Shown here: positions 24,287 through 26,122 of the stretch, in pieces | How the letters are laid out: every line of letters begins with the position of its first letter | Position numbering within the stretch: position 1 is the stretch's first letter | From: Betaproteobacteria bacterium | GTDB lineage: Bacteria > Pseudomonadota > Gammaproteobacteria > Burkholderiales > Rhodocyclaceae | Length of the DNA: 34,075 nucleotides | NCBI GenBank assembly: GCA_009777925.1 | Contig: WRKX01000013.1 | Span: 1-34,075, forward strand | Reading direction: 5' to 3' | Translations under genes and position numbers: made by a program | Notes under the pieces: model-generated | Seen by the model: only the letters and a program-made list of their open reading frames with translations | Told to the model about the DNA's origin: nothing | Databases searched by the model: none

Positions 24287-24844
24287 ATGTGCCACTTCGT
24301 CACAGCCATTGTAGGTGGTAGCGTGGATCTCGCTCGGCTGAATGCAATTGCAAAAAAGCATCATCGCTTCTTTGAACCCATCAAGAATGATTCTGTGGAG
24401 TCCTACCTGCAAAAGAATGAGGTCTATTTATCAACGCTACCGCACCGGGCAATGTGCGATTGTGGAACCTCTCTCGGATGGCTTCCCCGGCACTTAGTAA
24501 GTGCTCCAAAGCCTGTTAGCGGCGCAAAGATCGCCAAACTTCAGCGCATGGGGTGGAGTGAAACGAAGATTTCTCGTTGGCTTCAGTCCAAGGAACGTGA
24601 TCGCCAAACTTGGAACCCGCCTTCGCCAGATGATCTGTCGAATGACAAACAGAACGACAATTGGCTGGCACTAGCAGAAGAGGTACTCTCCGAACCCGCT
24701 GTGTCGTCGTTTGGGCTTATGGTTCATTGCTACAGAAGAGGTCTTGAGGATAGCATTCCTTTCAAAGGACGGGAAGACGTTGACCTCAGTCGCAAGGCTC
24801 TAGCGTCTATGGAGGATTGCAAGCTCTATGTCTTCCGCAAATAG
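24287..24844 (+). CDS. Hypothetical protein, cysteine-containing, unknown function
   Basis: I do not recognise a characterised family. The 185-residue product begins MCHFVTAIVGGSVDLARLNA and has a short cysteine cluster MCDCGTSLGW near residue 56. A possible helix-turn-helix-like stretch follows at about 80-100 (AKIAKLQRMGWSETKISRWL), with an acidic tail half. No signal peptide or membrane segment is seen. A GAAAGGATG-type ribosome binding site precedes the ATG. Codons are noticeably less GC-rich than in the flanking hemL and glyQ genes. It stands alone between two core operons, and a MITE-like element begins exactly after its stop codon. These points suggest recent acquisition, but function cannot be inferred. 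Confidence 0.7.
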   Translation: MCHFVTAIVGGSVDLARLNAIAKKHHRFFEPIKNDSVESYLQKNEVYLSTLPHRAMCDCGTSLGWLPRHLVSAPKPVSGAKIAKLQRMGWSETKISRWLQSKERDRQTWNPPSPDDLSNDKQNDNWLALAEEVLSEPAVSSFGLMVHCYRRGLEDSIPFKGREDVDLSRKALASMEDCKLYVFRK

Positions 24845-25013
24845 TATAGTGATTCGCGCATATAAAGAGACTGTTGGAAAAATGATGATTCAGCGAACTC
24901 TGGGAGCGCCGCGCACCAGCGCGGCCAAGCGGTAGAGCAGTCTGGCCGATGATGCCGGGCTAGTGCCCGGCGCTCCCAGGGGCGATGTTCCCGAAATTAT
25001 GTGAATCACTATA
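24845..25013. mobile_element. MITE-like element with Correia-like ends and paired REP hairpins (copy A)
   Basis: Perfect 11-bp terminal inverted repeats TATAGTGATTC (24845-24855) and GAATCACTATA (25003-25013) bound a 169-bp non-coding segment. The outermost TA on each side can be read as a target duplication, leaving TAGTGATTC ends. Inside are two inverted 24-base REP-like units, at 24902-24925 and 24954-24977. Their outer arms GGGAGCGCCG and CGGCGCTCCC pair with each other, and each unit also folds by itself into a 7-bp hairpin (GCCGCGC/GCGCGGC and GCCGGGC/GCCCGGC). There is no transposase inside. A decayed second copy is at 2156-2299. Confidence 0.8.
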
Positions 25014-25073
25014 ATGCACGTCATAACTACCTTGTACGTTAGGCGTGTTGAGCGTCTGAATCAAATGGTTTGC

Positions 25074-25101
25074 TTGGTTTTTACATCAGCAATAGTAAAA
25101 T
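25074..25101 (+). promoter_or_regulatory. Putative glyQ-operon promoter
   Basis: TTGGTT at 25074-25079 and TAAAAT at 25096-25101 are separated by 16 bases, about 30 bases before the glyQ ATG at 25130. A TTGCTT/TAGTAA pair with 17-base spacing overlaps it. Either could serve as a sigma-70 promoter just downstream of the MITE-like element. This is by eye only. Confidence 0.35.
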
Positions 25102-25129
25102 CTCGTCTTTCCGTTTTTTCGGACGTTGC

Positions 25130-26122
25130 ATGACGACCGCCGTAAAACCCAGCTTTCAGCAAATCATCCTTACGCTCCAGGAGTTCTGGAGTCGGCAGGG
25201 CTGCGCCCTGTTGCAGCCTTATGACATGGAAGTCGGCGCGGGCACAAGCCATACCGCCACTTTTCTACGCGCCATCGGGCCGGAACCCTGGCGCGCCGCC
25301 TACGTGCAGCCTTCGCGCCGCCCCAAGGACGGGCGTTATGGCGAAAATCCTAACCGGATGCAGCATTACTATCAATATCAGGTAGTGCTGAAACCCGCGC
25401 CGCCCGATATTATTGATCTGTACCTCGCATCGCTCGAAGCGTTGGGGTTTGATCTCAAAAAGAACGACGCGCGTTTTGTCGAGGACGACTGGGAAAATCC
25501 CACCCTGGGCGCGTGGGGCTTGGGCTGGGAAGTATGGATGAATGGCATGGAAGTCACCCAGTTCACCTATTTCCAGCAGGTCGGCGGCATTGACTGCAAG
25601 CCCATTACCGGCGAGATTACCTATGGCCTGGAACGTCTGGCAATGTACCTGCAAGGCGTGGAAAACGTCTATGATCTCATCTGGACAGATGGCGCAGCCC
25701 CCTTGGAGAGCAGCGAATCCCGCGCAGCGGGCAAGCGTGGAGGGTTCCTTACCTATGGCGACGTGTACCACCAGAACGAAGTCGAGCAGTCAGCCTATAA
25801 CTTTGAGCATTCGGATGCTACATTCCTGTTCGATGCTTTCAATGCCTATGAGAGACAGGCGCAGAATTTAATGACCGCGCAACTGGTGCTGCCCGCCTAC
25901 GAGCAGATATTGAAAGCCGCGCACACCTTCAATTTGCTCGACGCGCGTGGCGCGATTTCCGTTACCGAACGCGCTGCCTACATTGGTCGCATCCGCAACC
26001 TGGCACGTAGTGTCGCGCAAAGTTATCTGGATTCCCGCGCCCGCCTTGGTTTTCCGATGGCGCAAAAGGAACGAGCCGAGGAAGCTCTGGCTCAAATCGC
26101 ACGGAGCGCCGCCCGCCCATGA
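25130..26122 (+). CDS. glyQ: Glycine-tRNA ligase alpha subunit
   Basis: GlyQ is the catalytic subunit of the bacterial alpha2-beta2 glycyl-tRNA synthetase. The ATG at 25130 ([20 protein letters not shown]) is chosen over the ORF-track start 20 codons upstream, because it fits the family N-terminus and gives 330 residues. Diagnostic blocks are [59 protein letters not shown] and [20 protein letters not shown]. The stop overlaps the glyS start as ATGA, as expected for subunits needed in equal amounts. Confidence 0.97.

Follow-up and report, generated by a model that had tools for sequence, protein, structure and literature searches.

The short intergenic stretch in front of a glyQ-like gene of a Betaproteobacteria bacterium (assembly GCA_009777925.1) raises the question of what kind of element joins the ends of a MITE to the inverted units of a REPIN, and which enzyme moves it. 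As a rule, MITEs and REPINs are regarded as distinct classes of small bacterial repeat, served by different enzymes. The element, hereafter MITE1, lies in a window of 34,075 nucleotides, which is the whole stretch of DNA analysed here (contig WRKX01000013.1), and the host genome (G000), a MAG, consists of 175 contigs. The explanation developed below, which we hold to be very probable, is that MITE1 is a non-autonomous MITE of the IS630/Tc1-mariner type, which inserts at and duplicates TA, and whose core is a REPIN of the host's own RAYT-associated family.

Structure of the element

MITE1 occupies positions 24845-25013 (+ strand), 169 bp when the TA at either flank is counted, an extent given by its exact ends and its genomic copies. 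The left terminal repeat, TATAGTGATTC (24845-24855, + strand), and the right one (GAATCACTATA in + strand letters, 25003-25013, - strand) are the perfect 11-nt repeats reported in the initial annotation, exact in coordinates and letters; the first and the last TA are read as the target duplication. Inside these ends, the two inverted 24-nt units described there are also present: REP unit 1, GGGAGCGCCGCGCACCAGCGCGGC, at 24902-24925 (+ strand), and REP unit 2, GGGAGCGCCGGGCACTAGCCCGGC in - strand letters, at 24954-24977 (- strand), which agree at 21 of 24 positions and enclose a 28-nt spacer (24926-24953, + strand). None of 200 shuffled sequences folded as well as the element (z = -6.7; z = -6.5 on the other strand).

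As had been noted, MITE1 begins right at the stop of a hypothetical gene: the TAG of a 185-aa ORF (24287-24844, + strand) directly precedes it. This ORF gave no Pfam or NCBIfam match in profile searches and was not seen in the compared sequence upstream of glyQ in G013, a genome of the same genus. On the 3' side, the glyQ-like ORF (25070-26122, + strand) is called from a TTG; its translation probably begins at the ATG near position 25130.

The strong fold, together with a location that immediately follows a stop codon and precedes glyQ, is what one would expect of a conserved local hairpin that is not mobile and serves the hypothetical gene or glyQ as terminator or attenuator. Neither an Rfam match nor an intrinsic terminator was found for it, and searches of relatives did not detect the element at their glyQ locus; the initial annotation had held that the same sequence at the same site in distant species would argue for such a structure, and there the element was detected neither at glyQ nor elsewhere. 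Together with the copies at many unrelated loci described next, these relatives without the element largely refute a local hairpin, which we regard as extremely improbable.

Dispersed copies and insertion at TA

The pattern TATAGTGATTC-N(130-160)-GAATCACTATA matched the host genome four times, with no match for the reversed-pattern control, and TATAGTGATTC alone was found 32 times (control 0). BLAST found about 14 long copies in this genome, with fragments besides; about 12 copies are full or nearly full, and the near full-length ones are 75-94% identical. A genome holding no other copy had been named beforehand as an outcome that would speak against a mobile element; other copies are present. 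By alignment they fall into a short type of 169 bp and a long type of 185-189 bp, the latter having an extra 16-17 bp near AAAATATCCTTGCCT. The terminal inverted repeats are common to the dispersed copies, as are the spacer and both arms in copies at unrelated sites, and because the REPIN position and the spacer region agree among full copies, the composite spreads as a single unit. The window element is a member of a multicopy mobile family with fixed ends.

Empty sites were sought by joining the flanks of seven MITE1 copies over one TA and comparing them with the 20 other genomes of the genus, the comparison covering the first 3525 bases of the query and the copies within them. At the copy on host contig C146, the orthologous site in G013 (C17) is uninterrupted and reads GTT-TA-TGTCAATG, with a single TA; the site of the copy on C52 is unoccupied in G013 and G018, the sequence there being less conserved. 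Moreover, MITE2, a MITE without REPs some 95 bp long, is nested at a TA in a MITE1 copy (C14) and again at a TA inside a copy of a further family, MITE3 (C68). Because of the empty site and these nested insertions at TA, the element proper is TAGTG...CACTA between duplicated TA, and the target duplication that had been proposed is borne out; the assignment of TA at the MITE1 ends draws on the C146-copy empty site in G013 and on the nested insertion in locus L005. The orthologous comparison thus succeeded for the C146 copy, with its single TA, and not for the glyQ locus itself, where the suggested clean empty site was not obtained and the upstream neighbourhood of G013 differs.

The REPIN core and the host RAYT

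At up to three mismatches, 64 REP units occur in the host genome (control 0). The stem pairing of 40 distinct sequences lies above that of all 2000 shuffles, and one stem position switches between C-G and G-C. The genome has a single RAYT gene, on C91, assigned by Pfam Y1_Tnp and NCBIfam REP_Tyr_transpos; its RAYT profile match is to NF047646, at 80.7 bits (cutoff 80). There is a REPIN on each side of this gene. The upstream pair is letter-identical to both REPs of the window element, unit 1 having the letters of the first upstream REP and unit 2 those of the second REP on either side of the gene. On these sequence matches, the core of MITE1 is a true REPIN, cognate to the host's own RAYT, and the REP- or BIME-type core of the initial annotation can be refined to a REPIN that matches the genome's RAYT-flanking REPs. 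The open frame of the RAYT gene (L061:1039-1860) reads through the upstream REPIN, so that REP sequence may be translated as its opening codons; the actual start is probably further in.

When REP units were classed by hand from their flanks, 21 of the 64 belonged to MITE1, 8 to MITE3 or a MITE3-like element, 19 to a third carrier with ends like CAGGGCAATCGC...GCGATTGCCCTG (two of them split by another MITE), 5 to the RAYT locus and 11 lay elsewhere. At least two further carriers besides MITE1 hold REPINs in this genome. As most host REP units are housed in inverted-repeat carriers of other kinds, the RAYT need not be the sole means by which REPs spread. The window itself contains a second REPIN (2187-2247, + strand) in another inverted-repeat carrier, with ends related to CAGGGCAATCGC ... 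GCGATTGCCCTG. A REPIN-carrying family with such inverted ends and conserved arms was seen at 2110-2300 of the window and at L169, L174, L173, L179, L180 and L184.

MITE1 resembles the REPINs and BIMEs that accompany RAYTs (PMC2817692; Bertels and Rainey 2011, PMC3116915) in that its inverted REPs are identical to a RAYT-flanking pair and that host REPINs occur also outside IS630-type MITEs. It differs in holding its REPIN at a fixed position in a TA-inserting MITE, with a spacer of 28 nt that is longer than the about 10-18 nt of host REPINs outside IS630-type MITEs. The REP tag in the host is GGGAGC-like, as against the GTAG or CGTC superfamily tag.

With one RAYT, its cognate REPs and REPINs in several different flanking contexts, it is conceivable that the RAYT (HUH) enzyme moves MITE1 as a BIME or REPIN, and that the TATAGTGATTC ends are a preferred target or an extended REPIN flank; Di Nocera et al. 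describe REP dimers as inserted in palindromes (PMC3733652). We find this unlikely, because at the empty site the unit is missing in full and a single TA remains, as with a DDE element that inserts at TA, because copies at unrelated sites have the spacer and both arms in common, and because REP-free MITEs with related ends insert at TA too.

A candidate mobiliser of the IS630 type

The host genome is rich in pieces of IS630-type transposases, with 27 DDE_3 matches. The end layout of MITE1 matches that of an IS630-family IS of the same genome (TATAGTGCTT...), located on C62 and ending in TATAGTGCTTTTCGTAGATAAAAGGAC and TATAGTGCTTCCCGTAATTAAAAGGAC: the left end (24845-24871, + strand) reads TATAGTGnTT followed by ATAAAnnGAC at the spacing found in the C62 IS, with a modest terminal similarity. 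Past the first 10 nt, 10-11 of 20 positions match (shuffle p about 0.01-0.03), again a modest agreement. MITE2 and MITE3 match the C62 IS more strongly than MITE1 does, and all three MITEs have the outer TATAGTGnTT in common, with inner blocks similarly placed. The C62 transposase was assigned by NCBIfam NF033545 (118.5 bits, cutoff 100) and by Pfam DDE_3 and HTH_Tnp_IS630; it is split across two frames and perhaps inactive.

As for the IS with matching ends that the initial annotation had recommended looking for, the C62 IS agrees with MITE1 in layout and outer nucleotides; with all 32 exact ends of the host genome listed and the leftovers inspected, there was no autonomous IS with exact TATAGTGATTC ends, and no leftover ends were seen pairing around a transposase. 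An end on C144 was rejected as the end of a parent IS, as it sits beyond the right end of another IS (ends GAGCAT). From its ends, MITE1 is likely mobilised by an IS630 transposase acting in trans; a transposase related to that of the C62 IS would recognise the bipartite ends and move the element.

Comparison with Correia elements

Correia elements duplicate TA. MITE1 could be taken for a member of this group (CREE/NEMIS) that has lost the usual core, as both target TA and TATAGTG occurs in MITE1 as well as in the Correia repeats that PMC5039591 prints. Like the Neisseria elements described there, it starts with TATAGTG and is intergenic. This heptamer is the only exact match, since MITE1 does not match the Correia repeat TATAGTGGATTAA... 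and its letters past the first 7 nt differ, by eye, from the printed repeats; the core is different as well. A core unlike that of Correia elements had been anticipated, and a REPIN was found in its place. Furthermore, the common features are those of IS630-type ends generally, the C62 IS included. Membership of the Correia family is accordingly very doubtful: MITE1 is not a Correia element, though its ends look related.

The host genome also has elements with closer-looking ends (C12:28959-29065, C6 and C44), which may be counted in favour of a Correia origin. Ends of the type TATAGTGATTCCCCAAAATaCCAGGAC, nearer to the Correia repeat than those of MITE1, were seen at L188:160-266 (the C12 element), near position 1322 of L191 and near position 166 of L193. 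The inner core of these TATAGTGATTCCCCAAAATaCCAGGAC-ended elements also appears Correia-like; compared with phage records, the Correia-like element gave no match.

Occurrence in other genomes and parallel cases

Decayed relatives of MITE1 were found in one genome of the same genus, G013, and resemble the long type. The exact pattern, with exact ends and spacing required, was absent from 398 other genomes of the order, a sample with few genomes of the host's family and, from its genus, the host alone; BLAST gave no match to MITE1 in 16 same-family and 24 same-order genomes, and plasmid and phage records gave no real match. The REPIN would have entered an ancestral MITE once, perhaps through RAYT-mediated insertion, and its capture would predate the split of the host and G013 lineages. 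As the decayed G013 relatives resemble the long type, the short type seems to have expanded later, and the 169-bp subfamily would have been amplified later in the host genome.

A pattern scan of a genome-contig collection returned only a Mariprofundus MAG, in which TATAGTGATTC-ended elements enclose pairs of CGTC-type REPs (CGTCATTCCCG-type). One such element has 54 matches there, and 14 of 30 inspected loci, counted by eye, run end-REP-REP-end. In Anabaena variabilis, Di Nocera et al. (2013, PMC3733652) reported dimers of GTAG-15 REPs within TATAGGA...TCCTATA palindromes. The likeness lies in REP dimers inside long terminal palindromes that start with TATAG, none of which was found without REPs. 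The section consulted speaks of REPs inserted into palindromes, does not use the name MITE, and gives no TA duplication, empty site or partner IS; the sequence is unrelated to that of MITE1. A MITE enclosing a REP dimer is a variant of an arrangement noted once before, so that the "distinct element family" of the initial annotation should be read with some reserve in view of the Anabaena and Mariprofundus parallels.

Among MITEs derived from IS630/Tc1-mariner elements (RUP, Correia/NEMIS and others), which are background matter in the 2010 RAYT paper (Nunvar 2010, PMC2817692), MITE1 is typical in being short, non-coding and multicopy, in its TATAG-starting inverted ends with TA duplication, and in a host genome that has an IS630 transposase with similarly built ends. 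It differs in its REPIN core and in that the host genome yielded no autonomous partner whose ends are identical. Beyond the 2010 paper, our literature search, with most subscription papers outside its scope, found none that joins MITE, RAYT and IS630.

Tentatively, IS630-type MITEs may have repeatedly taken REPINs as their core and so form a hybrid class that recurs and could be mobilised in two ways, by a DDE transposase acting on the outer ends and by a RAYT acting on the inner REPs. This rather doubtful generalisation draws on at least two IS630-type MITE families here, on Mariprofundus, with its unrelated REP type, and probably on Anabaena. If true, the REP hairpin would benefit the MITE, for example through harmless insertions near gene ends. 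No dedicated transposase is known for CGTC-type REPs (PMC3733652), and the Mariprofundus elements point to a concrete way, open to testing, in which these REPs could spread.

Neighbouring genes and nested insertions

MITE1 had been placed just upstream of the glyQ promoter; this was not confirmed, as a promoter scan found no glyQ promoter above chance. Sequence conserved in G013 resumes about 9 bp downstream of the element. A promoter formed from the TATAAT at the right junction (25010-25015) was discarded, with no + strand call in the scan and a poor -35. Among 12 MITE1 copies, several sit 0-17 bp past a stop codon according to a simple ORF scan, and perhaps one or a few are intragenic. In the copies just past stop codons, the REPIN hairpin would join the 3' end of the mRNA. 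By analogy with known REP biology, an effect of MITE1 on mRNA ends is plausible; the hairpin could stabilise the mRNA or slow downstream transcription, although we put the chance that this matters at the present locus at somewhat below even.

One copy (L003, C52:5251-5412) adjoins a sequence, conserved throughout the genus, that looks by eye like an RNase P RNA gene. At L176:190-400 (C6), the spacer of a REPIN holds a MITE (TATAGTGCTTTCCTTAAATAAAGCTAC..., about 95 bp) that has no REPs. An IS630-type IS with ends GAGCATGC...GCATGCTC is inserted at TA within MITE1 copies (L009, L013, L016, L048 and L194). REPs are known as IS targets, and the TA of the CTAG loop in REP unit 2 is one target of this IS in MITE1.
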